64,000 bases of DNA from Chiridota heheva (Eukaryota; Echinodermata; Holothuroidea; Apodida; Chiridotidae): positions 663,501 to 727,500 of the forward strand of contig JAIGNY010000077.1 of assembly GCA_020152595.1 (NCBI GenBank), read 5' to 3'. The translations under genes were made by a program, and so were the position numbers. Position 1 is the first letter of the stretch. The number at the start of each line of letters is the position of its first letter. The notes beneath the pieces were generated by a model that was not told the DNA's origin, searched no databases, and saw only the letters and a list, made by a program, of their open reading frames with translations. This document shows, piece by piece, positions 1,016 through 64,000 of this stretch.

Positions 1016-1187
1016 CTGAAAGAAGAAAGATTATCACACAATAAGTTGTATTGACAGCCGCGCAGATTAAAAGGGGGTACATCTGAGAGTCTGGGCACTC
1101 CCCTAAAAGTTGTTAAGAAAAAAACCTGTGATAGTTTTTTTAACCATAGACAGTGAGAAATCTAGTGTCCAAATTTTAGGGTTTATG

Positions 1188-1614
1188 AGATAGGCTTGCC
1201 TAGATTGATTTTATTGGATTTTCTTAATGTTTTGGTTATGCTGAATCCAAAAATGCAGAGTTCCATTTTTCTCAACATCTTCAGAGCAGCCATCTTTAAT
1301 TTCAAAATGGCCACCATATTTCATAGGAAAATGACCATAACTTTCTTATTATAGCAGCTACAGACATGATTTTGGTGGCTAATCCTATGTTTTTAATACC
1401 AACTAACTAATTTGTAATATTGCCATCAAAAATAAATGGCAGCCATATTGAATTTAAAATGGCTGCCATATTTTTATCAAAATCTCACTATAAATTGCTC
1501 TATATGTCATGTCAACAGCAGATTATGATCATTAGTTTAGTCTTATGTTTTTAATAATGACACTTTTTAATGCTGTTAATTATTACATTCATTTCAGCCA
1601 CAGTACATATATAT
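1188..1614. repeat. Left terminal inverted repeat of the 14.9-kb element
   Basis: It pairs with 15625-16050. Examples of matching blocks are TAGGCTTGCC here against the complement of GCAAGCCTA at 16038-16046, and CAGCCACAGTACATATATA at the inner end against TATATATGTACTGTGGCTG at 15626. It ends where the small inverted-repeat element at 1619 begins. Confidence 0.75.
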
Positions 1615-1618
1615 TCAC

Positions 1619-1880
1619 CACGCTAAGCGTAGCGGGATATTTACGAGAGTTATACTTACCTTCCATGCTATAAATATGCAATCTGGTCACATGACCTGAT
1701 TCTAACGCACTTCTACCTGACCCTAAAAAACGTAGTAACCAACCAAGCCCTGACCTCCATAATACCTCTACTAACCCTCATTCAACATACCACCGAGGCC
1801 TGAACGAGAGGGAAGGCAGGCGGGATGCATGGAAGGTAAGTTTAACTCTGGTAAATATCCCCGCTACGCTTAGCGGGGTA
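1619..1880. mobile_element. MITE-like element with about 50-bp inverted ends and a terminal hairpin
   Basis: The left end CGCTAAGCGTAGCGGGATAT... and the right end, read in reverse, share about 50 bp including TTATACTTACCTTCCATGC / TTAAACTTACCTTCCATGC. At the right end, CCCCGCTA-CGCT-TAGCGGGG (1859-1878) forms a perfect 8-bp stem. Immediately beyond it (1879-1930) the sequence TTACCTTCCATGCTATAAATATGCAATC repeats the left end again, so a second, truncated copy abuts the first and the junction is a palindrome of about 85 bp. Confidence 0.6.
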
Positions 1881-4800
1881 AATTTACTTCAAGTTATACC
1901 TTACCTTCCATGCTATAAATATGCAATCAGATTGCAACCGAGGATAGGAAGGAAGGGAGTTCAGTTCGCAGCACATATTTTTTTTTTTTAAATGGCTGGT
2001 ACGAAAACTCACACTAATCGAATCCCGTTTAAAGGACGAAATTCCTTCTCCTCTTAAGGATGAAAGACCTCAGAGTGGGAAGTATTAAAACATAGTAAAA
2101 CCACGTCTAGTCACAGTCAAACCGAACAAGGCACCATTCGTTGACAGTAACGGAGGCAAACATCGAATGAACTTGAGCTAAAAACTCAGAAAAACAAGTC
2201 AACCTGAGGAGCGTTTGGACACAATATAAATATCAACAAAGTGTCTACAAAAAACGCCACAAACCACACCGGATTCGTCCCAAGACGGAACCGGCTAGTA
2301 AAGTACGATTGGGAAAGAAGCATGTACCAACTAAAACGAATTGAAGAAATCCCGGACAAGGGAAAAATTTGTAAGCGCGTAACCGCGTGAGAGCAAAAGT
2401 TAGCGGGGTAAACACGAACGTTGAAAAGTGAGTCAGACCAAAAACAAGAGAAAAACCGCGAAAAGCATTTTTCCGAACGACGGCACAAGAGATCCCGTGA
2501 AAAGAGGTTATGCTCCGAACCCGAGTGCATACCGCGGTCGTCCTATAAACAGTTCAGACTACTTGAAAAGAAAGTTACTGGACGATCTAATGGAGAAAAA
2601 TGTCACATGACACACTACGAAGAGATCTCTATGTAACTTTTCAGTGGTCGCGAGTCAAAGACCGTAGACCCAACTGGAAAAACCTCGGTGGATAGCTGCA
2701 AGTTATCCCAGAGCTCATGACTGAACCAAGTTTGAGAGAGGGCCCACCTCCACAGCGGGGAGGGGGGTGAACAATCTCTCAGAAAAGCCATGCTACATCG
2801 AGGAAAGGCGGACTTAGGCCACACCATCAAATGAAGCGCTCCGGGACTGAGATGCAGTCCGCCAGAGCCCGGGAAAGAGACAAAAATTGTCCCTGACCCG
2901 AGGCCCGTACGCGGAGCCTGCAAGGTCTCGAGCAGCCGAGGGAACCGCAGTGAGCCGGGAAAAGTGAGCGCTATCGGCCGTACGTCGCCTAGCGTAGCAT
3001 ACTTGGTACTAGCATGAAAGGCGGAAAACGTAACCCACATAGTTGAGTTCTGAAGAAAACAAAAGCTTTGACCCTGAAACCTGCAGGTCAGGAGTAAGGA
3101 CGCAAAGAAAAGATAGCTTGCGATCATCCACGCATGCGGACAGACCTACGTCTGGGAGACCGAAAAAGGTCCTGATCGCTCTGGTCACCTACAGGAAGAA
3201 CACCCATCAAGTGGGGGTTCCGCTGAAACGAGACGATAGTGATCTTGTACTCGTAGTCCAAGGTGAGCGGCCATAAGGCTGGCATAGTTCGTCCTGCGCC
3301 GAGACGAGAGGAACGATTCCAGAAAACTCTTGAAGGCCGTTCCTATTTGTCTGAAAAGGAGACCACAACAGTGGCGCAAAAACGGCGCGAAACCGAAAAA
3401 GCCTCGCTCAGCACTAGCGGTAAAAAGGTGAACAGAAAAACCCCGACATTCCGCCCGTTGAAAAAGGTCAAGTACCCGTCCAAGTTTCCGTCATAAGGGG
3501 CACAAGAAAATCTACCTCCATCAAGACGCATCCGTCGGCACTGACAATGAAATCTGACGGATGAAAACTTCGTTCCTCACACCAGGTGGGAGCATCCGCA
3601 CCACCACCAAAGGGGGTGGCCACCGACTAAACGTGTACAGCGGAGGTACGGAATGACACTATCTGCAGTCCAGAAAAACCGCCGACCCTGAGCAAAAGTT
3701 GTTTAAACTTTACTGACCAAAAACCAATGGCTAGCGAATTAAAAAGCGGGCCGTTATATAAAACGTTTACAAGAAGGGATGCCAACCGTGTAAGGCTATA
3801 GAGCTGTGAGACGGTTATGGGATGTAAGACCGCGGAGCCATACAACATAGTCGATGGCACCCAAGCGGTGTCTGAAAAGTGGAGCAGTTGCGGATCCGCG
3901 TAGCTCGAGGCCACACCTATCAACAGCGAAACTTGTCGAAGAAGGTGACTGGAAAAGGTGTTAAGGTACAACGTAGAGTAACAACCTTGAAACCGGGAAG
4001 CCTACGGCTACGGGCGTGGAGAAAACTAATACTGTATGTCTGTACGGGTAGTTAAGTAACAAGCCGTAAAACCGCATGGAAACTGCTTTAAGAAGGTGTA
4101 AAGTATGGAATGAACCATGCCGTTGTTGGTAATAGCTACCCCAAACGTGAGGTTGTCTATCAAAAGGACACCTAGTGTCAAGAAAAGTATCCTTCATGGA
4201 GTTAATATTGACAGGGGGGGTGTAACGTACTACGCCAACCGGATGAGTCATAAACCCCAGCACTGGTGTTGAAATCACGAAAAAGTTGACGTCCTGTGTA
4301 TACTACACGGACCGTTAATTCCGTTAAACACTCTTCAACACGGAGCTGAGAAGCGCGTGGCTACTAGGGGGACTTACGCCGTACAAAGTATGCAACCCCG
4401 TTAAGTATCATAGAGCCGTAATGGGTCTACAAAGGCGTCAGCATAACAAGTAAAATCCACTAGTCATCCGCCAAGTTTGTACAAAAGAACCGTCTAGGCC
4501 TACGATAGCGTTAACGTACTACATCCGTAACGTAAGTCGTTACCTCAGTGTACTTCTATTCACTGCGGAGCCACCAAGTAAAAGGCTACGTGTAGGGAAG
4601 TTGTACTCAGTACGCATTCCTGTAGAGAATAGTTAAAAATATACCGGGGCCATATGGAATACGGAAGAGTTCACGTGCTACGCAAGCTATACGAGTCGTA
4701 AACTTAGTTTGTTTCATCACGGAGCTCTGAAACTGGTAGCCTGCGTGGGGAAAAGGGGACTACCGTCGTACTCAGTACGTGTCCCGGTAAGAAAAACGGC

Positions 4801-5436
4801 CGTGGAACTCTGTAGCTCATGGCTACTGGTCCTCTATCACACAGCTGCGCTGCTGGTGTAGGCCGTTAACTCCATTTGTATATAATCACTACGGAGCAAC
4901 GTAACCGGTGGCTACGCGTGGGGGACTACCGCCGAACGCTAAAAGCGTCCCGGTAAGAAAGACGACCGCGGAATACCGCAGCACGCGGCTAACAGTCGCA
5001 ATATCCGGATGTTCCGTTACCCGGGTTTATCGTAAGTTGTACGTAAAAAACGTGTCAATATCTGTATAACTTGAGTGGAACGTCTCGTTCGACGCAAAAA
5101 TCATATTCAGAGTAGTTTGAACGTTCGTGGAACTATGTAACACAAAGAAAATGGCTCTCGTGATGGTATGCCTCCCGTAGAGATGGATTTCTTATCACCC
5201 GGGCACTAGGCCTCGAAACCTAAACAAGCGCTTACACGCGACGCATCCTGGGAGCGTAACGTACCGACAAACGGGGACTTGTCCTCGTGTCCATAATACT
5301 GGTCAAAATCTATGCGGAACCGTGACGTTCAACGCGGAAATCTCATCAAGTCAGCTCACACGGACGTGAAGAAGGAATAGCTCTCCTAAGATTGTTACTG
5401 TCACCTGACCATGTAGCTAAAAAGCTAAAGGGTATA
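1881..5436. other. CpG-rich, purine-biased block of unknown nature
   Basis: This stretch differs clearly from its surroundings: CpG, CGT and GTAC are frequent and the plus strand is rich in A and G. No frame stays open beyond 170 codons and I recognise no domain. Short frames such as 2428-2610 (...RGYAPNPSAYRGRPINSSDY...) look protein-like but have no start or context. From about 3800 to 5000 there are degenerate repeats with the core CGGAGC (for example 4341, 4566, 4720 and 4891, spaced 150-225 bp) and the block GGGGACTACCG(C/T)CG followed by TCCCGGTAAGAAA. It occupies the place that the 3' half of the gene would have in an inverted copy of the right half, so it may be an insertion. Confidence 0.4.
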
Positions 5437-5637
5437 CTTCTTCAATGGCGATGTTGGGTCTTTAGCTCCATCATTATTTCTGATTTGGTTTTTGGTATTA
5501 AGAAGGTATGATCAATAGCATACAGAGAGCAAGGAACAATCATCAAACTGTTTTTCTTAGACCAAGTTCTGGCCTGCTACTCTGAATGATAAGAAACCTT
5601 GACAAAAGATTCCTTTCTTCCCTTAACTTGATCACTT
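5437..5637 (-). pseudogene. Inverted fragment of the element's own gene
   Basis: Read on the minus strand, this matches 14032-14279, including the coding words for AAGTTAAGGGAAG, TCTTTTGTCAAGGTTTC and AGCAGGCCAGAACTT. The right copy encodes NLLSRFLII...SRPELRLRKTI. The left copy lacks about 30 bp near its 3' end and has several stops. It shows that part of the gene exists twice in opposite orientation within one element. Confidence 0.7.
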
Positions 5638-6273
5638 TATTCACAATCTCAAGCCATTATATCACGGATAGAAGATACAGGATTCGGAGTATGCATACCA
5701 GACTTTGTCAAGAGAGACATATCCTGCTGTTTTTGCAGTGGATAACATTGATTTTTTTAGACGACACGCCATGTGGCAAGGACACCCTCTATGGAACACT
5801 TATCGTCATGTGCCAGAAAGACAATAGCAACAACGACATTGATGATACATTTAACACACCACTGCGTATACCAGATACATTAGCAACTAATCCACCTCAG
5901 CTACAAGCAGGCAACTAACATATGTCTACGTCCAATAAAGTTTGAACAAACACAATACCAGTGTGAAAATGAACCTGACAAAGACTACAGCAAGATATAA
6001 GCTTGAATTAGCTATGTAACAAATAAAGTTGACGTGTGTGCTGAATCCCATACATTACAAGAGATGACAGATTTAAATGAAGATATATTGTCACCAAAGC
6101 AGCCGTGTCTTACAAAGACAAAAGTGATGCCAACATGGGCTGCAACTCGGTGATTGGTCCTTCGATCTTTAGGTCAGCAAGTAGATGGAGGTTATAGTGA
6201 AGTGGTCACCCATCTTTTCAAGTCACCTTCAACAGATATGACTACCCACTATACAGTGCTGCCATTTACCCAA
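5638..6273. other. Unassigned interior of the element
   Basis: A 110-codon frame (5586-5918) covers part of it but overlaps the inverted fragment and shows no family match. No repeats seen until the 27-bp array. Confidence 0.4.
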
Positions 6274-6435
6274 GAGATATCTGCCTGTGTAGTTGGTCCT
6301 CACATATCTGCCTGTGTAGTTGGTCCTCAGATATCTGCCTGCGTAGTTGGTCCTCACATATCTGCCTGTGTAGTTGGTCCTCACATATCTGCCTGTGTAC
6401 TTGGTCCTCACATATCTGCCGGTGTAGTTGGTCCT
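6274..6435 (+). repeat. 27-bp tandem array, 6 copies
   Basis: Unit CACATATCTGCCTGTGTAGT + TGGTCCT, with a few substitutions. Because 27 is a multiple of three it gives an open frame repeating ISACVVGPH, which I read as a by-product. Confidence 0.9.
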
Positions 6436-6487
6436 CAGAGACAAACCATCATAACTTTGGACATGAAACTTGTATGAACGGGCCATA

Positions 6488-7306
6488 AAGCTACAGCTGT
6501 CAGGAGGATGTTTATGGATCATGAGGCCTGGAGCTACAGCAGTCAGGAGGATGTCCATGGATCATGAGGCCTGGAGCTACAGCAGTCAGGAGGATGTCCA
6601 TGAATCATGAGGCCTGGAGCTACAGCAGTCAGAAGGATGTCCATTAATTATGAGGCCTGGAGCTACAGCAGTCAGGAGGATGTCCATGAATCATGAGGCC
6701 TGGAGCTACAGCAGTCAGGAGGATGTCCATGGGTCCTGAGGCCTGGAGTTACAGCAGTCAGGAGGATGTCCATGGATCATGAGGCCTGGAGCTACAGCAG
6801 TCAGGAGTATGTCAATGGATCCTAAGGCCTGGAGCTGTAGCAGTCAGGAGGATGTCCATGGATCCTGAGGCCTGGAGCTACAGCAGTCAGGAGGATGTCC
6901 ATGGATCATGAGGTCTGGAGCTACAGCTGTCAGGAGGATGTCCATGGATCCTGAGGCCTGGAGCTACAGCAGTCAGGAGGATGTCCATGGATCCTGAGGC
7001 CTGGAGCTACAGCTGTCAGGAGGATGTCCATGAATCATGAGGCCTGGAGCTACAGCAGTAAGGAGGATCTTCCTGGATCATGAGGCCTGGAGCTACAGCA
7101 GTCAGGAGGATGTCCATGGATCATGAGGCCTGGAGCTACAGCTGTCAGGAGGATGTCCATGAATCATGAGGCCTGGAGCTACAGCAGTAAGGAGGATCTT
7201 CCTGGATCCTGAGGCCTGGAGCTACAGCAGTCAGGAGGTTGTCCATGGATCATGAGGCCTGGAGCTACAGCAGTCAGGAGGATGTTCATGGATCATAAGG
7301 CCTGGA
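6488..7306 (+). repeat. 43-bp tandem array, about 19 copies
   Basis: Unit AGGCCTGGAGCTACAGCAGT followed by CAGGAGGATGTCCATGGATCATG-type sequence. Copies differ by substitutions (GCAGT/GCTGT, GATCATG/GATCCTG), often in alternating subtypes, which suggests higher-order amplification. Confidence 0.9.
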
Positions 7307-7652
7307 GAGCTTCATGTTTGTATGGTAGCACTACATGCACTTGGGAAAAACCTTGAAGGAAGTGGTCTTGGTACACTGGCGATAGAGAAAGGTGTGTATT
7401 CAGCTGCCGCCATAATAATAAATAATACAATATATTTATGAAGCGCCTTCCCTGTAAAATACAACCCCAAAAATACAACCTCTATAAAAAGCATAAAAAA
7501 TACAATGCAAAGATAAATACACAAAGGCAGTCTGGACCCTGCTGTGTTAGAGAGATGCAGCAAACTAAAATTAAATTTCCACGACAGAAGCGTTGACATA
7601 AAGATTGCATATGAGAAAGTCTCTGCTGCTTATGCTGACAACGTGAAGACAA
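7307..7652 (+). other. Gene remnant interrupted by a LINE-tail-like insert
   Basis: The first 90 bases can be read as HYMHLGKTLKEVVLVHW, resembling an upstream segment of the transposon gene family described below (from memory, low certainty). About 7405-7470, ATAATAATAAATAATACAAT then TTATGAAGCGCCTTCC, resembles the reversed 3' tail of L2-like LINEs, compare TATATAGCGCTTATATT near 33518. Confidence 0.3.
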
Positions 7653-8808
7653 GCTGGAGAAGAAGCCCGACGAGGAGCTAGCAGCGTGGATGGACACCTA
7701 CATGCAGAAGTTGGAGAAGAAGCCCGACGGGGAGCTTGCAACGTGGATGGACACCTATATGCAGCAGGTTGGAGAAGAAGCCTGACAGGGAGCTAGCACC
7801 GTGGATGGACACCTACATGCAGCAGGTTGGAGAAGAAGCCCGACGGGAAGCTAGCATTGTGGATGGACACCTACATGCAGCAGGTTGGAGAAGAAGCCCG
7901 AAGGGGAGCTAGCAGCGTGGATGGACACCTACATGCAGCAGATTGGAGAAGAAGCCCGACGGGGAGCTAGCTACGTGGATGGACACCTATGTGCAGCAGG
8001 TTGCAGAAGAAGCCCGACGGGGAGCTAGCAACGTGGATGGACACCTACATGCAGCAGGTTGGAGAAGAAGCCTGACGGGGAGCTAGCAACGTGGATGAAC
8101 ACCTACATGCAGCAGGTTGGAGAAGAAGCCTGACGGGGAGCTAGCAGCGTGGATGGACACCTACATGCAGCAGGTTGGAAAAGAAGCCCAACGGGGAGCT
8201 AGCAGCGTGGATGGACACCTACATGCAGCAGGTTGGAGAAGAAGCTCAACAGGGAGCTAGCAATGTGGATGGACACCTTACATGCAGCAGGTTGGAAAAG
8301 AAGCCTGACGGGGAGCTAGCAACGTGGATGGACACCTACATGCAGCAGGTCGGAGAAGAAGCCTGACGGGGAGCTAGCACCGTGGATGGACACCTAAATG
8401 CAGCAGGTTGGAGAAGAAGCCCGACGGGGAGCTAGCAGCGTGGATGGACACCTACATGCAGCAGGTTGGAGAAGCTCGACGGGGAGCTAGCAGCGTGGAT
8501 GGACACCTGCATGCAGCAGGTTGGAGAAGAAGCCCGACGGGGAGCTAGCAGCATGGATGGACACCTACATGCAGCAGGTTGGAGAAGAAGCCCGACGGGG
8601 AGCTAGCAACGTGGATGGACACCTACATGCAGCAGGTTGGAGAAGAAGCCTGACGAGGAGCTAGCAGCGTGGATGGACACCTACATGCAGCAGGTTGGAG
8701 TAGAAGCCCGACGGGGAGCTAGCAACGTGGATGGACACCTACATGCAGCAGGTTGGAGAAGAAGCCCGACGGGGAGCTAGCAACGTGGATGGACACCTAC
8801 ATGCAGCG
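7653..8808 (+). repeat. 58-bp tandem array, about 20 copies, derived from coding sequence
   Basis: Unit: GTTGGAGAAGAAGCCCGACG, GGGAGCTAGCAGCGTGGATG, GACACCTACATGCAGCAG. One frame of the unit reads LEKKPDGELATWMDTYMQQ. The last copy ends ...MDTYMQ and runs directly into RVEVLLRIIKGCRKG, which looks like the continuing gene, so the array seems to be an expansion of an exon segment. 58 is not a multiple of three, so each copy shifts frame. Confidence 0.9.
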
Positions 8809-9307
8809 AGTCGAAGTGCTCTTGCGCATCATCAAGGGATGTCGCAAAGGTATCATGAAGAATATCTGGTGTCACTTGATGATCAAGTGAAATACTTCTT
8901 CCAATTTGACCTATATATTAAAGTATGCCTAGATGATTCCAGTATACTTAGCATAGACAGTTGAAGGCAAAAGATGAAGAAGGATGGCAGATGCTACAGG
9001 ATGGTAATTTTTGTGTAAGCAAGTCCAATGTACAGATCACTGCCCTATTTTCTGATCAGGCATTAAACCAATGGAATAAGGATCTGAAGATTTGGATCGG
9101 GCAATAGCCACTGCACCCTACTTGTCCAAGGTTCCAAAAAGGCTTCCCAACCACTCATCAGTACCACCACCTTGTCGGCAACACACCAATCAGACAAGCA
9201 AATCATGCCAAGAAACTTAAAGATGCGATCTTTAAACACTGTGGGGAAACCCATTCATAAACAACACACCTCTCAGGAATATCTTTCGTCTGTTTTAATC
9301 CCAGAAC
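8809..9307 (+). pseudogene. Middle part of the element's gene (broken)
   Basis: Reading across frames gives RVEVLLRIIKG, then DDQVKYFFQFDLYIKV, then AKDEEGWQMLQDGNFCVSKS and FSDQALNQWNKDLK. I recall a large repetitive family of uncharacterised proteins in marine invertebrate genomes with segments of this type in the same order: a YFF...D segment, then a short GNFVV...DQA..Q.NK segment. Frameshifts separate the pieces. After this the 41-bp array begins. Confidence 0.5.
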
Positions 9308-12300
9308 CAGCCAAGACTGACATACTCACTGGAACACAGAAGGGGGCTGACTGACATACTCACTGGAACACAGAAGGGAGCTGAGCCAAGACTGACATAC
9401 TCACTGGAACACGGAAGGGAGCTGAGCCAAGACTGACATATTCACTGGAACACAGAAGGGAGCTGAGCCAAGACTGACATACTCACTGGAACACAGAAGG
9501 GAGCTGAGCCAAGACTGACATACTCACTGGAACACAGAATGGAGCTGAGCCAAGACTGACATACTAACTGGAACACAGAAGGGGCTGAGCCAAGACTGAC
9601 ATACTCACTGGAACACAGATGGGAGCTGAGCCAAGACTGACATATTCACTGGAACACAAAAGGGGCTGAGCCAAGACTGACATACTCACTGGAACAAAAA
9701 GGGGACTGAGCCAAGACTGACATACTCACCGGAACACAGAATGAAGCTGAGCCAAGACTGACATACTCACTGGAACACAGAAGGGAGCTGAGCCAAGACT
9801 GACATACTCACTGGAACACAGAGGGGAGCTGAGCCAAGACTGACATACTCACTGAAACACAGAATGGAGCTGAGCCAAGACTGACATACTAACTGGAACA
9901 CAGAAGGGGCTAAGCCAAGACTGACATACTTACTAAAACACAGAAGGGGGCTGAGCCGAGACTGACATACTCACTGGAACACAGAAAGGGGCTGAGCCAA
10001 GACTGACATACTCACTAGAACACAGAAGGGGGCTAACCCAAGACTGGCATACTCACTGGAACTCAGAAGGGGGCTGACTGACATACTCACTGGTACACAG
10101 AGGGGAGCTGAGCCAAGACTGACATACTCACTGGAACACAGAAGGGAGCTGAGCCAAGACTGACATACTTACTGAACACAGAATGGAGCTGAGCCAAGAC
10201 TGACATACTAACTGGAACACAGAAGGGGCTGAGCCAAGACTGACATACTCACTAGAACACAGAAGGGGGCTGAGCTGAGACTGGCATACTCAGTGGAACA
10301 CAGAAGGGGGCTGACTGACATACTCACTAAAACACAGAAAGGGGCTGAGCCAAGACTGACATACTCACTAGAACACAGAAGGGGGCTGAATTGAGACTGG
10401 CATACTCACTGGAACACAGAAGGGGGCTGACTGACATACTCACTGGTACACAGAAGGGAGCTGAGCCAAGACTGACATACTCACTGGAACACAGAAGGGA
10501 GCTGAGCCAAGACTGACATACTTACTGGAACACATAAGGGAGCTGAGTCAAGACTGACATACTCACTAGAACACAGAAGGGGGCTGAGCTAAGACTGACA
10601 TACTCACTGGATCACAGAATGGGGCTGAGCCAAGACTGACATACTCACTGGAACACAGAAGGGAGCTGAGCCAAGACTGACATACTTACTGGAACACAGA
10701 AGGGAGCTGAGCCAAGACTGACATACTTACTGGAACACATAAGGGAGCTGAGCTAAGACTGACATACTCACTGGATCACAGAAGGGGGCTGAGCTAAGAC
10801 TGACATACTCACTGGAACACAGAATGGGGCTGAGCCAAGACTGACATACTCACTGGATCACAGAAGGGGGCTGAGCTAAGACTGACATACTTACTGGAAC
10901 ACAGAAGGGAGCTGAGCCAAGACTGACATACTTACTGGAACACAGAAGGGGCTGAGCTAAGACTGACATACTCACTAGAACACAGAAGGAGGCTGAGCCA
11001 AGACTGACATACTCACTGGAACACAGAATGGGGCTGAGCCAAGACTGACATACTCACTGTAACACAGAAGGGAGCTGAGCCAAGACTGACATACTTACTG
11101 GAACACAGAAGGGAGCTGAGCCAAGACTGACATACTTACTGGAACACAGAAGGGAGCTGAGCCAAGACTGACATACTTACTGGAACACAGAAGGGGGCTG
11201 AGCTAAGACTGACATACTCACTGGAACACAGAAGGGGGCTGAGCTAAGACTGACATACTCACTGGATCACAGAAGGAGGCTGAGCCAAGACTGACATACT
11301 CACTGGAACACAGAAGGGGGCTGAGCCAAGACTGACATACTCACTGGAACACAGAAGGGGGCTGAGCCAAGACTGACATACTCACTGGAACACAGAAGGG
11401 AGCTGAGCCAAGACTGACATACTCACTGGAACACAGAAGGGAGCTGAGCCAAGACTGACATACTCACTGGAACACAGAAGGGAGCTGAGCCAAGACTGAC
11501 ATACTTACTGGAACACAGAAGGGGCTGAGCCAAGACTGACATACTTACTGGAACACAGAAGGGGGCTGAGCTAAGACTGACATACTCACTGGAACACAGA
11601 AGGGAGCTGAGCCAAGACTGACATACTTACTGGATCACAGAATGGGGCTGAGCCAAGACTGACATACTCACTGGAACACAGAAGGGAGCTGAGCCAAGAC
11701 TGACATACTTACTGGAACACAGAAGGGAGCTGAGCCAAGACTGACATACTTACTGGAACACAGAAGGGAGCTGAGCCAAGACTGACATACTTACTGGAAC
11801 ACAGAAGGGGGCTGAGCTAAGACTGACATACTCACTGGAACACAGAAGGGGGCTGAGCTAAGACTGACATACTCACTGGATCACAGAATGGGGCTGAGCC
11901 AAGACTGACATACTCACTGGAACACAGAAGGGAGCTGAGCCAAGACTGACATACTTACTGGAACACAGAAGGGAGCTGAGCCAAGACTGACATACTTACT
12001 GGAACACATAAGGGAGCTGAGCCAAGACTGACATACTTACTGGAACACAGAAGGGAGCTGAGCCAAGACTGACATACTTACTGGAACACAGAAGGGGGCT
12101 GAGCTAAGACTGACATACTCACTAGAACACAGAAGGGGGCTGAGCTAAGACTGACATACTCACTGGATCACAGAATGGGGCTGAGCCAAGACTGACATAC
12201 TCACTGGATCACAGAATGGGGCTGAGCCAAGACTGACATACTCACTGGAACACAGAAGGGAGCTGAGCCAAGACTGACATACTCACTGGAACACAGAAGG

Positions 12301-13898
12301 GAGCTGAGCCAAGACTGACATACTTACTGGAGCACAGAAGGGGGCTGAGCCAAGACTGACATACTCACTAGAACACATAAGGGAGCTGAGTCAAGACTGA
12401 CATACTCACTAGAACACAGAAGGGGGCTGAGCCGAGACTGACATACTCACTGGAACACAGAAGGGGGCTGAGCCAAGACTGACATACTTACTGGAACACA
12501 TAAGGGAGCTGAGTCAAGACTGACATACTCACTGGATCACAGAATGGGGCTGAGCCAAGCCTGACATACTCACTGGAACACAGAAGGGAGCTGAGCCAAG
12601 ACTGACATACTTACTGGAACACAGAAGGGAGCTGAGCCGAGACTGACATACTTACTGGAGCACAGAAGGGGGCTGAGCTAAGACTGACATACTCACTGGA
12701 TCACAGAATGGGGCTGAGCCAAGACTGACATACTTACTGGAACACAGAAGGGGGCTGAGCCAAGACTGACATACTCACTGGAACACAGAAGGGAGCTGAG
12801 CCAAGATTGACATACTTACTGGAGCACAGAAGGGGGCTGAGCTAAGACTGACATACTCACTAGAACACAAAAGGGGGCTGAGCCGAGACTGACATACTCA
12901 CTGGAACACAGAAGGGGGCTGAGCCAAGACTGATATACTCACTGGAACACAGAAGGGGGCTGAGCCAAAACTGACATACTCACTGGAACACAGAAGGGGG
13001 CTGACTGACATACTTACTGGAACACAGAAGGGGGCTGAGCCAAGACTGACATACTCACTGGAACACAGAAGGGAGCTGAGCCGAGACTGACATACTCACT
13101 GGAACACAGAAGGGGGCTGAGCCAAGACTGATATACTCACTGGAACAAAAAGGGGACTGAGCCAAGACTGACATACTCACTGGAGCACAGAAGGGGGCTG
13201 AGCCAAGACTGACATACTTACTGGAACACAGAAGGGGGCTGAGCCGAGACTGACATATTCACTGGAACACAAAAGGGGGCTGAGCCGAGACTGACATACT
13301 CACTGGAACACAAAAAGGGGCTGAGCCGAGACTGACATACTTACTGGAACACAGAAGGGGGCTGAGCCAAGACTGACATACTTACTGGAACACAGAAGGG
13401 GGCTGAGCCGAGACTGACATATTCACTGGAACACAAAAGGGGGCTGAGCCGAGACTGACATACTCACTGGAACACAAAAGGGGACTGAGCCAAGACTGAC
13501 ATACTCACTGGAACACAGAAGGGGGCTGAGCTAAGACTGACATACTCACTAGAACACATAAGGGAGCTGAGCTAAGACTGACATACTCACTGGAACACAG
13601 AAGGGGGCTGAGCCAAGACTGACATACTCACTGGAACACAGAAGGGAGCTGAGCCAAGACTGACATACTTACTGGAGCACAGAAGGGGGCTGAGCCGAGA
13701 CTGACATACTCACTGGAACACAGAAGGGGGCTGAGCCAAGACTGACATACTCACTGGAACACAGAAGGGGGCTGAGCCAAGACTGACATACTCACTGGAA
13801 CACAGAAGGGAGCTGAGCCGAGACTGACATACTCACTGGAACACAGAAGGGGGCTGAGCCAAGACTGATATACTCACTGGAACACATAAGGGGGCTGA
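9308..13898 (+). repeat. 41-bp tandem array, about 112 copies (4.6 kb)
   Basis: Unit GAGCTGAGCCAAGACTGACA, TACTCACTGGAACACAGAAGG. Variants fall into classes (GGGAGCTGAG/GGGGGCTGAG, CCAAG/CTAAG, CTCACT/CTTACT, GAACACA/GATCACA) and short copies of about 31 bp lack the AGCCAAG part. Runs of variant classes recur, for example around 11050-11250 and 11690-11890, which points to block duplication. The array sits inside the element's gene, between the DGNF segment and the NLLSRFL segment. Confidence 0.93.
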
Positions 13899-15582
13899 AT
13901 TGCACGAGTGCTTCCCAAACAAGAACGCCTTTCTTAAGAAGGAAAGGAAAGTCTATGGGATAGAATGACAAAAGCCAAACTCAAAACATTAATCATATGG
14001 ATGCCGAAAACAACTCTTTGGGTTTGCAGAAAAAGTGATCAAGTTAAGGGAAGTAAGAATCTTTTGTCAAGGTTTCTTATCATTCAGAGTAGCAGGCCAG
14101 AACTTAGGCTAAGAAAAACAATTAAACACTACGAGGTTTCGCTTGTTCCTCGCTTTCTGTTTACTACTAATCGTACCTTATTAATACCAAGAACCAAATC
14201 AAAAATAATAAAAGAGCTAAAGACACAGATGAAAGAGTACAAACCAGATGAGAATACCCCAACATTGCCATTGAAAAGGTAGCAATAATTGATGCCATGT
14301 CCGAGGTGCAAGCATTCAATATTGAACCAGGTATGAAGGTATTTGATGATTTGACCAACACATTTGTCTCTAGGATAGAGAGAAAGATTGAACATTGCCC
14401 AGAAGGAAGAGTAGTGTTTGATAGATATGATGTTGAAGATTCACTAAATTGCAAAACAAGATTATAGAGAACAACACAAACACCAATTAAATACAACATC
14501 CACAAGGATATGGCAGTAAACCATGTGTCTATGAAAGATATATCATCTTGTAGCAAAAACAAGTCATCCCTGACACATCAATTCAGAGAAGCATTAATTA
14601 AGAAATACAATGGTAGTCCAAAGAAGGTTGTCATGGTTAAGGGTACTGAGACTAAGGTCAACAAGGACTTCTAATTGTCTGAAGATCTTAAAGAACATGA
14701 CTTCAAAGAGGCAGACACAGTCATGCCACACCATGTTATAGACTGCCTCCGTGACACAACACTGAACAAGGTTACTGTCTATTCGCCAGATACAGATGTG
14801 CTTATCTTATTGAGTGACTTACTTGCAAACGGAGGAGCAGGAGCATTTACTGTAGTAAAGTTTATTAAGAATACCACTAACTTAAATGTCACAGACATTG
14901 TCAGTGCCATTGACAAAGCAAAATGCCAAGGTCTTGATGGTATACCCAACCTCTCTGGTGCTGATTGTGGTGGCAAATTTGTTGATATCGGAAAGAAAAT
15001 GTGGATACAGATATATCTCGTATTACCTCACAACGACCATGCACTACGATTATTTAGCAACCTTGGGACCAGTACAACACAAATGAAGTTGTAGATGGTA
15101 ACTTGCCCGGCAAATTGAAATTGGTGGAAAAGTTTCTATGCTCTCTACATATGAAAGGTGCAAGTGATATCCCAGATACTAGTAGGGAACTCTTCAGGTC
15201 AACGAACCATGAAGGAGAACACTTGCTACCTACGATGGCTGCACAACTGCCTCATATCCGAAGGATCAATTACATCTGTGCCTGTGACAAGTCATACACA
15301 TCAGCTAAGCAAGACCTTCCGTCAAGAGATAATCTTTGATGGGACAAAATCGATGGATCATTCCAGCCAAGAACATATTTGAATCTTCCGGCACCCAAAG
15401 CAGTCATGGAGCTGGTAAAATGTGGGTGCCAAAAAAATGTCCAAAAAAGTTGTTCCTGTAAGAAGAAGAATCTGGTATGTACGCCTCTGTGCAAGTGCAT
15501 CAACTGTGAAAACTGTGAAGACTACAGCATACTAGATGAAATAAATGAATGTGACCTAAAAGATACAGACGTTATGGCTTAG
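13899..15582 (+). pseudogene. C-terminal half of the element's gene: FEN/XPG-like nuclease motifs plus CXC domain
   Basis: Frames in order: 13965-14282 reads ...NLLSRFLII...SRPEL...; from 14279 VAIIDAMSEV, at about 14405 GRVVFDRYD; then after a TAG (14464) and a TAA (14672), EADT (14711), VYSPDTDVLILL (14778), LSGADCGGKF...DIGKKMW (14950-15005); then in another frame EKFLCSLHMKGAS (15127) and finally MELVKCGCQ...CSCKKKNLVCTPLCKC (15406-15500) to a TAG at 15580. The CXC part has the spacing of tesmin/TSO1-like zinc-binding domains. The acidic motifs match in order the catalytic ones of FEN1/XPG nucleases (VFDG, EAEA, EDxD, GSDY then GIGPK). Nuclease assignment is my inference from motif order; the family itself I know only as uncharacterised repeats. 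Two stops and at least two frameshifts make this copy dead. Confidence 0.65.
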
Positions 15583-15624: not shown

Positions 15625-16050
15625 TATATATATGTACTGTGGCTGAAATGAATATAATAATTAACAGCATTGAAAAGTGTCATTGTTAAAAACATAAGAC
15701 TAAACTAATAATCATAATCTGCTGTTGACATGACATTTAGAGCAATTTATAAAACAGATTTTGATTAAAAAATGGCGGCATCTTGAAATTCAACATGGCC
15801 GCCATTCATGTTTGACAGCAATATTACCAATGGGTTAGTTGGTATTGAAAACATAAGGTTAGCCACTAAGATCATGCCTATAGCTGCTTTAATAAGAGAG
15901 TCATGTTCATTTTTCGATGAAAAGTAATGGCCATTTAAAATTCAAGAAGGCTGCCATGACAATTTTGGAAAAAATGGAACCCTCATTTTTGGAATCTGCC
16001 ATACACGAAATGACAAGAAAATGCAATAAAATAGTACGCAAGCCTACCTC
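15625..16050. repeat. Right terminal inverted repeat of the 14.9-kb element
   Basis: Inverted copy of 1188-1614, of equal length, with substitutions and few gaps. It includes AAAATGGCGGCATCTTG and ATGGCCGCCATTC blocks. It begins about 40 bp after the stop of the CXC reading frame. Confidence 0.75.
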
Positions 16051-17789
<1,739 letters not shown>

Positions 17790-18201: not shown

Positions 18202-19293
18202 CTTAGAAGGGGAAAGGGGAGGGTTGAGAGGAGGAGAAAGGAATGATAAGGAGAGGAATATGGGAGGGAGGAGAAGAATATGGGTGGGGGGGAGGAAAAT
18301 GAGGGAGGGGAGAAAGATGTGAGGAGGGGAGGAAGATGAGAGGGGGGGAGAAAGATGAGAGAAAAGGGAGGAATATGGGAGGGAGGAGAGGAATATGGAA
18401 GGGAGGGGAGGAAGATGAGAGGGAAGGGAGGAAGATGAGATGGAAGGAAGGAATATGGGAGGAAGGGAGGAATATGGGAGGAAGGAAGGAATATGGGAGG
18501 AAGGGAGGAATGTGGGAGGAAGGGAGGGAAGGAAGGAGTATGGGAGGAAAGGGAGGAATGTGGGAGGAAGGGAGGAATGGGGAGGAAAGGGAGGGAAGGA
18601 AGGAGTATGGGAGGGAAGGGAGGAATATGGGAGGGAAGGGAGGAATATGGGAGGGAAGGGAGGAATATGGGAGGGAAGGGAGGAATATGGGGAGGAGATG
18701 CAGTGAGAGGGAGGAAAGGAAGATGAGGAGGGGAGGAAGATAATATGAGAGGGAAGGGAGGAAGATGAGAGGGAGGGGGAGGAAGATGAGAGGGAAGGGA
18801 GGAAGATGAGAGGAAGGGGAGGAAGATGAGGGGAGGGGAGGAAGATGAGAGGGAGGGGAGGAAGATGAGAGGGAGGGGAGGAAGATGAGAGGGAGGGGAG
18901 AAAGATGAGGGAGGGAGGAGAAATAAGGGGAGGAAGGGAAGGGAGATGAGAATCCAGAAAGGAACATGAGAGGGAGGAGAGGAAGATGAGAGGAAGGGAG
19001 GGAAGATGAGAGGGAAGGGAGGAAGATGAGAGGGAAGGGAGGAATATGGGAGGGAAGGGAGGAATATTGGAGGGAGAAAAAGAATATGAGAGGAAAGCGA
19101 GGAAGATGAGAGGGAGGGGAGGAAGATGAGAGGGAGGGAAGGAAGATGAGAGGGAGGAGAGGAAGATGAGGGGAGGAATATGGGAGGGAGGAGAGGAATA
19201 TGGGAGAGAGGGGAGGAAGATGGGAGGGAGGAAGATGGGAGGGAGGGAGGAAGATGAGAGGAAGCAGAGGAATATGAGAGAGAGGAGAGGATG
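18202..19293 (+). repeat. 1.1-kb purine-rich tract (GGGAGGAAGATGA-type repeats)
   Basis: The plus strand is almost only G and A, with T mainly in ATGAG and ATATGG words; units such as GGGAGGAAGATGAGA and GGGAGGAATATGGGA repeat with variable spacing. Since C1orf50 is on the minus strand, its pre-mRNA would contain a long pyrimidine-rich stretch in this intron. A 396-codon minus frame rich in Ser, Pro and Leu is a by-product. Confidence 0.9.
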
Positions 19294-58669: not shown

Positions 58670-59035
58670 TAACTTGTGCGGCTCGAAGTCATGCAGTTCG
58701 AAGTCGTGCGGCTCGAAGTTGTGCGGCTCGAAGTCGTGCGGCTCAAAGTCGTGCGGTCGAAGTCGTGCGGCTCGAAGTTGTGCGGCTCGAAGTCGTGCGG
58801 CTCGAAGTCGTGTGGCTCGAAATCGTGCGGCTCTAAGTCGTGCGGCTCTAAGTCATGCGGCTCTAAGTCATGCGGCTCTAAGTCATGCGGCTCTAAGTCG
58901 TGCGGCTCTAAGTTGTGCGGCTCGAAGTTGTGCGGCTGTAAGATGTGCGGCTCTAAGTCGTGCGGCTCTAAGTTGTGCGGCTCTAAGTCGTGCGGCCCTA
59001 AGTCGTGCTGCTCTAAGTCATGCGGAACCCGCAAC
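58670..59035 (+). repeat. 15-bp satellite (AAGTCGTGCGGCTCG)
   Basis: About 24 copies with variants TCTAAGTC/TCGAAGTC and TGCGG/TGTGG. It passes into the 24-bp form at about 59035. Confidence 0.93.
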
Positions 59036-61368
59036 GGCTCTTAGTTGTGCGGAACCTGAAACAGCTATTAGCTGTGCGGAACCCGCAACTCGACTCGAAG
59101 TCGTGCGGAACCGGCGGCTCGAAGTCGTGCGGAACCTGCGGCGGCTCTAAGTCGTGCGGAACCCGCGGCTCGAATTCGTGCGGAACTCGCTGCTTGAAGT
59201 CGTGCGGAGCCCGCTGCTTGAAGTCGTGCGGAACCCGCGGCGGCTTTAAGTCGTGCAGAACTTGCAACGGCTCTAAGTTGTCGGAACACGTGGCTCGAAG
59301 TCATGCGGAACCCGCAGCTCTAAGTCGTGCTGAACCCGCGGCTCTAAGTCGTGCCGAATCCGCAGCTCTAAGTCGTGCGAAACCCGTGGCTCTAAGTCGT
59401 GCGGAGCCCGCGGCTCTAAGTCGTGCGTAACCTGCAACTCCAAGTCAGGCGGAACCCGCCGCGACTCTAAGTCATGCGGAACCCGCCGAGGCTCTAAGTC
59501 GTGCGGAACCTGCAACAGCTCTTAGTCATGCGGAACCCGCAACGGCTATAAGTCGTGCGGAACCCGCGGCTCGAATTCGTTGTGCAAAACATGCGGCTCT
59601 AAGTCGTACGGAATCGGCAACTCTAAGTCGTGCGGAACCGGCAACTCTAAGTCGTGCGGAACCGGCAAGTCTAAGTCGTGCAGAACTGGCAAGTCTAAGT
59701 CGTGCGGAACCGGCAACTCGAAGTCGTGCGGAGCCGGCGGCTCTTAGTCGTGCGGAACCGACGGCTCTTAGTCGTGCGGAATTGGCGGCCCTTAAGTCGT
59801 GAGGAACCCTCTGCTCTAAGTCGTGCGAAACCTGCGCTTCTAAGTCCTGCAGAACCCGCGGCTCTAAGTCGTGCGGAAGCCGCGGCTCTAAGTCGTGCGG
59901 AACCCGCGGCTCTAAGTCGTGCGGAACCCGCGGCTCTAAGTCGTGCGGAACCCGCGGCTCTAAGTCGTGCGGAACCCGCGGCTCTAAGTCGTGCGGAACC
60001 GGCTCTAAGTCGTGCGGAACCCGCAGCTCTAAGTCATGCGGAACCGCAACTGGAAGTCGTCGCGGAACCAGCGCTCTTTAGTCGTGCGGAACCAGCGGCT
60101 CTTAGTCGTGCGGAACCCGCAACGGCTATTGGTCGTGCGGAACCGGCAACGGCTATTGGTCGTGCGGAAACCGCAATGGCTATTGGTCATGCGGAACCTG
60201 CAACAGCTCTAAGTCATGCGGAACCCGCAACGGCTATTAGTCGTGCGGAACCCGTGGCTCGAATTCGTTGTGCGGAACAGGCGGCTCTAAGTTGTGTGGA
60301 ACCGGCAACTCTAAGTCGTGCGGAACCGGCAACTCTTAAGTCGTGCGGAACCGGCAACTCTAAGTTGTGCGGAACCGCAACTCAAAGTCTTGCGGAGCCG
60401 GCGGCTTTTAGTCATGCGGAACCGGCGGTTCTTAGTCGTCGCGGAACTGACGGCTCTTAGTCGTGCGGAACCTCGTCAGAACTCGCGGCTCTAAGTCGTG
60501 CAGAACCCGCAGCTCTAAATCGCGAAACCCGCGGCTTTAAGTCATGCGTAACTTGCAACTCTAAGTCAGGCGGAACCCGCCGCGGCACTAAGTTGTGCGG
60601 AACCCGCCGCGGCTCTAAGTCGTGCGGAACCTGTACCAGCTCTTAGTCGTGCAGAACCCGCAACGGCTATTAGTCGTGCGGAACCTGTGGCTCAAATTCG
60701 TTGTGCGGAACAGGCGGCTCTAAGTCGTGCGGAACCGGCAACTCTAAGTCGTGCAGAACCGGCAAGTCTAAGTTGTCCGGAACCGGCAACTTGAAGTCGT
60801 GCGGAACCGGCGGCTCTTAGTCGTGCGGAACCGGCGGCTCTTAGTCGTGGTGGAACACGCCGTGGCTCTAAGTCGTGTGGAACCTGCTGGGGTTCTAAGT
60901 CGTGCGGAACCTGCAACTCTAAGTTGTTCGGAACAGGTGAATCAAAGTCGTGCGGAACCCACAGCTCTAAGTCGTGCGGAACCGGCGGCTCTAAGTCGTG
61001 CGAAATTGGCGGCCCTTAAGTCGTGCGAAACCCGCAACGGCTCTAAGTTGTGCGGAGCCCGCAGTTCTAAGTCCTGCAGAACCCGCAACGGCTCTAAATT
61101 GTGCGGAACCCTCAACAACTCAAAGTCCTGCGGAACCCGCTGCGGCTCTAAGTCGTGCGGAACCCGCCGCGGCTCTAAGTCGTGCGAAACCCGCCGCGGC
61201 TCTAAGTTGTGCGAAACCCGCCGCAGCTCTAAGTCGTGCGGAACTGGCCGCGGCTCTAAGTCGTGCGGAACCGGCCGCGGCTCTAAGTCGTGCGGAAAAT
61301 GCCGTGGCTCTAAGTCTTGCGAAAAACAGCCGCGGCTTTAAGTCCTGCGAAAAACAGCCGCGGCTCTA
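59036..61368 (+). repeat. 24-bp satellite (AAGTCGTGCGGAACCCGCGG-CTCT)
   Basis: The 15-bp unit with an added GAACCCGCG-type segment. Subtypes (CCGGCAACTCT, CCGCCGCGGCTCT, CCGCAACGGCTATT) form local runs, and longer blocks recur (for example around 59560-59780 and 60240-60430), so higher-order repeats exist. Open frames with ALSRAEPA periodicity are by-products of period 24. Confidence 0.93.
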
Positions 61369-61790
61369 ATAGCCGTTGCGAGTTCTGCACGACTAAGAGC
61401 TGGTGCAGGTTCCGCACAACTTAGAGCCGCGGCGAGTTTCGCACAACTTAGAGCCGCGGCGGGTTCCGCCTGACTTAGAGTTGCAAAATACGCACAACTT
61501 AGAGCTGCTGGTTCAGCAGGACTTAGAACCACGGGTTCGGCACAAAATAGAGCTGCGGGTTCCGCAGGACTTAAAACCGCGGGTTCGGCACGACTTTGAG
61601 TTGCCTGTTCCGCACGACTTAGAGCCGCCAGTTCCGCACGACTAAGAGCCGCCAGTTCCGCACAACGAATTCGAGCCGCCGGTTCCGCACGACTAATAGC
61701 CGTTGCAGGTTCCGCACGACTAAGAGTTGTTGCAGGTTCCGCACAACTTAGGCTTAGACTTAGAGCCACGACGGGTTCCGCACGACTTAG
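61369..61790 (-). repeat. 24-bp satellite in reverse orientation
   Basis: Units read GCACGACTTAGAGCCGCGGG and GTTCC, the reverse complement of the array on the left. The switch is at AGCCGCGGCTCTAATAGCCG (about 61360-61379). Confidence 0.92.
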
Positions 61791-64000
61791 GCGCTGCGAC
61801 CGTAGGCGCTGCGACCGTAGGCGCTGCGACCGTAGGCGCTGCGACCGTAGGCGCTGCGACCGTAGGCGCTGCGACCGTAGGGCGCTGCGACCGCAGGCGC
61901 TGCGACCGTAGGCGCTGCGACCGTGGCGCTGCGACCGTAGGGCGCTGCGACCGTAGGCGCTGCGACCGTAAGCGCTGCGATCGTAGGCGCCGCGACCGTA
62001 AGCGCTGCGACCGCAGGCGCTGCGACCGTAGGCGCTGCGACCGTAGGCGCTGCGACGCAGGCGCACGACGTAGGGCGCTGCGACCGTAGGGCGCTGCGAC
62101 CGTAGGCGCTGCGACCGTAAGCGCTGCGACCGGGCGCTGCGACCGTAGGCGCTGCGACGTACCGGGCGCTGCGACCGTAGGCGCCTGCGACCCGTAGGGC
62201 GCTGCGACCGTAAGCGCTGCGACCGTAGGCGCTGCGACCGTAAGGCGCTGCGACCGCAGGGCGCTGCGACCCGCAGGCGCTGCGACCGTAGGGCGCTGCG
62301 ACCGTAGGCGCGCTGCGACCCAGGCGCTGCGACCGTAGGCGCTGCGCCGTAAGGCGCTGCGACCGTAGGCGCTGCGACCGCAGGCGCCGACGTAGGCGCG
62401 CGACCGTGGCGCTGCGACCGTAGGCGCTGCGACCGTAGGCGCGCTCGTAGGCGACCGTAGGGCGCTGCGACCGTAGGCGCTGCGACCGTAGGCGCTGCGA
62501 CCGTAGGCGCTGCGACCGTAGGCGCTGCGACCGTAGGCGCTGCGACCGTAGGCGCTGCGACCGTAGGCGCTGCGACCGTAGGCGCTGCGACCGTAGGCGC
62601 TGCGACCGTAGGCGCCGACCGTAGGGCGCTGCGACCGTAGGCGCTGCGACCGCAGGGCGCTGCGACCGTAGGCGCTGCGCCGTAGGCGCTGCGACCGTGG
62701 CGCTGCGACCGTAGGCGCTGCGACCGCAGGCGCTGCGACCGTGGCGCTGCGACCGTGGCGCTGCGACGTAAGGGCGCTGCGACCGTAGGGCGCTGCGACC
62801 GTAGGCGCTGCGATCGTAGGCGCTGCGACCGTAGGGCGCTGCGACCGTAGGCGCTGCGACCGTAGGGCGCTGCGACCGTAGGCGCTGCGACCAGGCGCTG
62901 CGACGTAGGGCGCTGCGACGTAGGCGCTCGACCGTAGGCGCTGCGACCGCAGGGCGCTGCGACCGTAAGCGCTGCGACCGTGGCGCTGCGACCGTAGGCG
63001 CTCGGGCGCGACCGTAGGCGCTGCGACCGCAGGGCGCTGCGACCGGGCGCTGCGACCGTAGGGCGCTGCGACCGTAGGGCGCTGCGACCGTAGGCGCTGC
63101 GACCGTAGGCGCTGCGACGTAGGGCGCTGCGACGTAGCGCTGCGACCGTAGGCGCTGCGACCGTAGGCGCTGCGATCGTAGGCGCTGCGACCGTAGGCGC
63201 TGCGACCGTAGGCGCGCGATCAGGCGCTGCGACCGTAGGGCGCTGCGACCGTAGGCGCTGCGACCCGTAGGGCGCTGCGACCGTAGGCGCTGCGACCGTG
63301 GCGCTGCGACCGTAGGCGCTGCGACCGTAAGCGCTGCACCGTAGGGCGCTGCGACCGTGGCGCTGCGACCGCAGGCGCTGCGACCGTAGGCGCGCGACGT
63401 GGCGCTCGACGTAGGGCGCTGCGACCGTAGGCGCTGCGACCGTAGGCGCTGCGACCGTAGGCGCGTAAGCGCTGCGACCGTAGGCGCGCGATCAGCGCTC
63501 GCGACCGTAGGGCGCTGCGCGAGGCGCTGCGATCGTAGGCGCTGCGACCGTAGGCGCTAGGCGCTCGACCGTAGGCGCTGCGACCGCAGGGCGCTGCGAC
63601 CGTAGGCGCTGCGACCGTAGGGCGCTGCGACGTAGGGCGCTGCGACGTAGGCGCTGCGACCGTAGGCGCTGCGACCGTAGGCGCTGCGACCGTAAGCGCT
63701 GCGACCGTAGGCGCTGCGACCGCAGCGCGCGACGTGGCGCTCGACCGTAGGGCGCTGCGACCGTAGGCGCTGCGACCGTGGCGCTGCGATCGTAGGGCGC
63801 TGCGACCCGTAAGCGCTGCGACCGTGGCGCTGCGACCCAGGCGCTGCGGCCGTAGGCGCTGCGACGTGGGCGCTGCGACCGTAGGCGCTGCGACCGTAGG
63901 GCGCTGCGGCCGAGGCGCTGCGACCCGTAAGCGCTGCGACCGTGGCGCTGCGACCGTAAGCGCTGCGACCGGGCGGCGCTGCGAGGCGCCGTAGGGCGCT
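61791..64000 (+). repeat. 15-bp GC-rich satellite (GGCGCTGCGACCGTA), running off the window
   Basis: About 145 copies. Most variants are one- or two-base gains or losses (GGGCGC, GACGTA, GCGACCCG) rather than substitutions. The unit resembles the reverse-orientation 15-bp unit GAGCCGCACGACTTA and follows it without a break. Confidence 0.95.

Follow-up and report, generated by a model that had tools for sequence, protein, structure and literature searches.

AcademX transposons carry an XPG-type nuclease, and in FEN enzymes the DNA-binding helix-turn motif is located after a GxD, at the place of a GxGK. Two Academ lineages are described as encoding a helicase and a nuclease, with target duplications of 9 or 10 bp (AcademH) and 3 or 4 bp (AcademX) that are related to the encoded enzymes (PMC10045372). 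Here we examine a locus of the holothurian Chiridota heheva, contained in a stretch of 64,000 nucleotides (contig JAIGNY010000077.1, positions 663,501 to 727,500; hereafter the window, in whose own numbering positions are given). An earlier note, made from the letters alone, had read 13899 to 15582 as a transposon gene with FEN1/XPG-like motif order fused to a CXC domain. The host assembly (1.1 Gb, 3744 contigs) holds many decayed copies of a ~7-kb inverted-repeat transposon, and the window holds a dead, rearranged copy of this terminal-inverted-repeat DNA transposon. From motif conservation and structure modelling, we consider it likely that the long gene of the transposon encodes a protein with a C-terminal FEN/XRN-fold domain, probably a metal-dependent nuclease, and a Cys-rich tail.

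Conserved motifs and a predicted FEN/XRN fold

The window copy carries IIDAM, VFDRYD, (K)EADT, SPDTDV, SGADC and DIGKK in one frame between 14279 and 15091, in the FEN1/XPG-like order that had been claimed for them, broken by two in-frame stops, 14465 and 14672. A different frame (15058-15579, one stop at 15337) holds the Cys-rich part (15421-15516). Because stops interrupt it and the Cys-rich part is in another frame, the window copy is a pseudogene. The parts at this end of the gene are:

13899..14278, plus strand: gene part directly before the nuclease domain
14279..15057, plus strand: predicted FEN/XRN-like nuclease domain, stops at 14465 and 14672 in frame, fold taken from paralogues
15058..15582, plus strand: C-terminal part, read in a different frame with a stop at 15337, the gene's stop codon at its end
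15421..15516, plus strand: Cys-rich (CXC/TCR-like) tail, sub-threshold match to Pfam TCR

We compiled a majority reading over 18 groups of matches, sorted by contig and strand; one is the window copy, and the other 17 come from the 12 contigs fetched. Its nuclease part is free of stops and reads IIDAM, VFDRYD, EEADT, SPDTDV, SGADW and GIGKK, the last standing where the window has DIGKK, a form found once. A loose pattern of the whole motif set occurred in 0 of 200,000 shuffles of the majority reading and one covering just its last three motifs turned up in 26 of 200,000, both patterns having been composed only after the sequence had been seen; judged by these shuffles, the motif set exceeds chance. 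The private changes of the 18 groups (103 silent, 366 changing and 23 stop, for a neutral expectation of 0.27/0.70/0.03, with 71 of the ~330 codons counted lying upstream, outside the gene's own frame) indicate that decay of the window family is close to neutral. Conservation within this family therefore says little on function.

The acidic residues can be followed in more diverged relatives. A protein search of the same genome gave at least 146 matches (best 142 of 276 candidates), and we fetched 30 paralogue pieces of ~0.7-1 kb, sharing 25-38% identity with the window piece, in batches of 20 and 10. The matched stretch lacks a stop in 23 of the 30, the first 20 having been selected mainly for absence of stops; some break right after it (for example L032, L034 and L047). 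By eye they sort into families C, D, E and F, in addition to family A, to which the window copy belongs, and family B (C1442), which is decayed. Families C and D include near-identical copies, with 97% identity between L033 and L041, and may therefore have been active recently. The motifs of family C are IVDAM, VFDRY, HEEADT, RDTDV, TGSDT and FAGIGKK. In a 23-row alignment (A5), counting rows with a letter, which are related and give counts that are not independent, the acidic columns are D24 (13/15), D68 (17/17), E166 (16/18), E167 (18/18), D169 (17/18), D193 (17/18) and D195 (15/18), and the other columns of the set are G247 (14/15), D249 (15/15), G256 (11/15), G258 (11/13) and K259 (12/13). 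The acidic residues are thus kept in diverged open relatives, in 13/15 to 18/18 rows; the earlier note had named their lack of conservation in intact homologues as a refuting result.

A structure model was built from the alignment of paralogues, the modelled open paralogue being 24% identical to the window row. Among the matches listed by VIA-align, which covers only chains pre-picked by Foldseek, 50 of 50 rows are FEN, Exo1, XRN or 5′-exonuclease chains; XRN chains head the table, with Z scores tied with those of Exo1 and T5 FEN. Sequence identity in the fold matches is 7-16%. These results support a predicted PIN-like fold of the FEN/XRN kind, known from enzymes that degrade RNA and from others that trim branched DNA. 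Because XRN chains tie FEN chains in Z, the result does not favour FEN1/XPG specifically. The idea of a nuclease core, reached from sequence alone, is borne out by the predicted fold of the paralogues, and the fold search places the domain among FEN/XRN nucleases without the narrower FEN1/XPG assignment. At the place of the helix-two-turn-helix after GSD, G258 and K259 are mostly kept, but the model has a predicted local distance difference test score (pLDDT) below 50 for residues 248-259. A profile comparison by hhalign with five archaeal FEN-1, in which the aligned region lies only around GxD...GxGxK, gave a local score of 29.7 for two families, for a maximum of 21.9 in 100 column shuffles.

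Possible role and competing explanations

The acidic set could cleave, in a metal-dependent way, DNA that becomes branched or frayed during transposition. Possible targets would be the second-strand cut at the element ends, flap trimming or end opening; the Cys-rich tail may bind DNA and may guide cleavage. The first cuts would be made farther upstream in this protein, possibly by a core of the DDE type. Such a core is presumed by us from motifs such as VDNID and DKTIEE, which occur in similar invertebrate proteins, and is a guess, not a result. Because the domain makes up only the C-terminal portion of the protein, we only infer structure-specific cutting and a role in moving the element.

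Several observations weigh against an element-encoded nuclease of this fold. The copy in the window is dead. A DDE core was not detected, and the gene pieces upstream of the nuclease domain have no Pfam match above the cut-off. The acidic columns of A5 have some exceptions (N, C, Y, S, N, E, G). At the structural level, the modelled paralogue is distant from the window row, AlphaFold2 on the window protein alone gave an unusable model (pLDDT 32.6), and the poorly modelled residues 248-259 hold D249 and most of GIGKK. The VIA-align chains were pre-selected, and in Foldseek itself the template modelling (TM) scores are ~0.4, with only two matches reaching an expectation (E) value of 0.001. Pfam, searched to an E value of 10, showed no XPG family, XPG_N and XPG_I being unrecognisable, and no FEN chain was among the PDB sequence matches. 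By hhalign, a 15-row alignment restricted to rows with >120 letters is marginal (24.3, shuffles up to 23.1 in 60), and a single sequence (20.2, up to 20.4 in 60) and the global comparison of two families (9.0, up to 11.1 in 100) fail against shuffles. In addition, a NCBIfam search with four paralogues gave nothing of note. Sequence methods are thus nearly blind to the nuclease relationship.

We regard it as unlikely that the FEN/XRN-fold domain itself, and not a DDE core, cuts the transposon ends or opens the inverted-repeat hairpins, a flap-type nuclease then carrying out a catalytic step of transposition in a family of elements some of whose lineages look recently active. It also seems improbable that the domain is XRN-like and works on RNA or single strands rather than transposon DNA: XRN chains do lead the VIA-align table, level with Exo1 and T5 FEN, but the GxGK after GxD is mostly kept, and the gene lies inside a transposon with a Cys-rich tail at its end.

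About as improbable is another Rossmann-like, PIN-like or non-catalytic fold that resembles FEN in motif order alone. Such a fold would account for the absence of a match to the XPG sequence profile, and a SUMO-E1 chain (Rossmann type) stands third in Foldseek (E 1.2e-3, probability 0.84, TM 0.23), above several FEN rows. However, the SUMO-E1 rows have TM scores of 0.20-0.27, compared with ~0.4, the VIA-align rows are uniformly of the FEN/XRN kind, and the acidic columns are kept in the 23-row alignment. A host gene or gene family trapped in the repeat is very unlikely: open paralogues were seen only as pieces of ~0.9 kb whose ends lie outside the view, but in the window family the gene sits within inverted ends at independent sites and its decay is near neutral.

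A probable FEN/XRN-type nuclease, unrecognised by Pfam and NCBIfam, sits in an abundant transposon. Because open, near-identical copies of sister families exist in the same genome, a role of this candidate nuclease in cut-and-paste transposition is directly testable.

The element, its gene and a palindromic derivative

A DNA search of the genome with 13899-15582 gave at least 75 matching pieces, the window included (best 40 of 59 candidates); 23 of the 75 are on contig C216, almost all within one tandem array. The array at G000:C216:100463-102713 consists of 22 consecutive matches to 100 bp of the nuclease region (query 833-932) and is spanned by an open frame of 717 amino acids. Relatives were not found among viral contigs (protein, alignment and pattern scans), genome_contigs, phages or plasmids. 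A PHROGs search with 10 proteins gave a single match, at E 0.0056, whose family has no known function, and no other virus-gene search was made.

For comparison of the elements, stretches were fetched from 12 other contigs. The match to the window stops at or near 16050 in most fetched copies, C486 and C3393 being exceptions; alignment among the copies shows that they extend 30-40 bp farther to a shared end, which the right end of the window copy has lost. Most element ends start with TAGTGAGGAGTCT or a near variant, and the copies on C1206 and C3734 are ~7.06 kb long with inverted ends of ~330 bp. An exact 3-bp duplication is found at 4 of 8 two-ended elements, one with a one-base mismatch at 3 and with a two-base mismatch at 1 (cross-pairs, 7/56), the boundary having been picked from among 5 candidates, with 9 lengths tried. 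An alternative reading as a 2-bp TA duplication fits 6 of the 8, and a length of 3 bp is tentative.

The open pieces of C1206 follow one another on a single strand, from 8858 to 4255, and occupy several frames. The nuclease and Cys-rich tail make up about the final 30% of this longer gene. Position 13899 is the end of a 4.5-kb array of a 41-bp unit, itself an amplified stretch of the same transposon gene, and is not the gene start. The window copy is collinear with the C1206 element from base 3226 onward, and its arrays of 27-, 43-, 58- and 41-bp units are tandem expansions of gene stretches from one transposon copy. The remaining features of the copy are:

1152..1495, plus strand: left terminal inverted repeat, 81% to base 14-359 of the C1206 element
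5459..5653, minus strand: inverted duplicate of a gene piece (left arm of the palindromic derivative), base 5091-5291, 76%
5658..6302, plus strand: upstream gene part, collinear with C1206 base 3226-3849, 79%
6277..6437, plus strand: array of 27-bp units, from the gene
6489..7307, plus strand: array of 43-bp units, from the gene, maps to C1206 6722-6766
7655..8807, plus strand: array of 58-bp units, from the gene, maps to C1206 6331-6396
8749..9352, plus strand: middle gene part, collinear with C1206, 78%
9349..13898, plus strand: array of 41-bp units, ~112 copies, from the gene, maps to C1206 5726-5767
15756..16051, plus strand: right terminal inverted repeat, outermost 30-40 bases unrecognised in the window

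The window copy is also one of a palindromic kind of derivative, whose 5′ half has been replaced by an inverted copy of the 3′ part. The inverted piece at 5459..5653 sits 5 bp from 5658, and the copies on C679, C3290, C1442 and C2790 are arranged likewise (4-6 bp); this junction, which sets base 5091 beside base 3226, is common to 5 of 13 loci, and the rearranged form therefore seems to have multiplied. Three more loci (C486, C1694 and C2763) have the inverted partner at a different spacing, and the 5′ half is retained in C1206, C3734 and partly in C1926.

The five loci with this shared junction of the palindromic derivative are L016, L020, L023, L029 and the window (5459-5658). Window positions 1615-5454 have no match to the C1206 element and occupy the left arm at the expected site of the gene copy. 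At L029:1419-2096 (minus strand), an open frame of 225 amino acids of the related family B, with AVDKTIEETFMKFAKS, adjoins a family A copy; it has no Pfam match. Elsewhere in the window, 18249-19291 and 58676-63984 are long tandem arrays built of short units.

Comparison with known nucleases and transposons

The likeness to FEN1, XPG, EXO1 and T5 FEN lies in the predicted fold, the order of the acidic residues and GxD...GxGxK; in contrast to those enzymes, no XPG_N or XPG_I is recognisable here and the domain is part of a transposon protein. The 5′-3′ exoribonucleases Xrn1 and Xrn2 (Rat1) differ in that they are much larger proteins, and the domain described here has GxGK after GxD. The tail shares with the Tesmin/TSO1 CXC (TCR) domain a C-terminal position and the pattern CxC...CxC...CKC, but it scores only 13.4 bits in the window and 12.7 bits in the majority reading against Pfam TCR (cut-off, 23.5), and no Cys-rich tail was seen in the distant family B. 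A Cys-rich region is therefore present as the earlier note had it, and the CXC label is weak.

A literature search combining Academ, CXC and transposon found nothing. Among known transposons, the AcademX lineage is probably the nearest kind, going by its description; we propose this kinship because the element fits the described AcademX traits. The duplication reported for AcademX is of 3-4 bp, whereas here an exact 3-bp duplication is found in just 4 of 8 elements. What the two would share is a DNA transposon with terminal inverted repeats that encodes a nuclease, here as a predicted fold.
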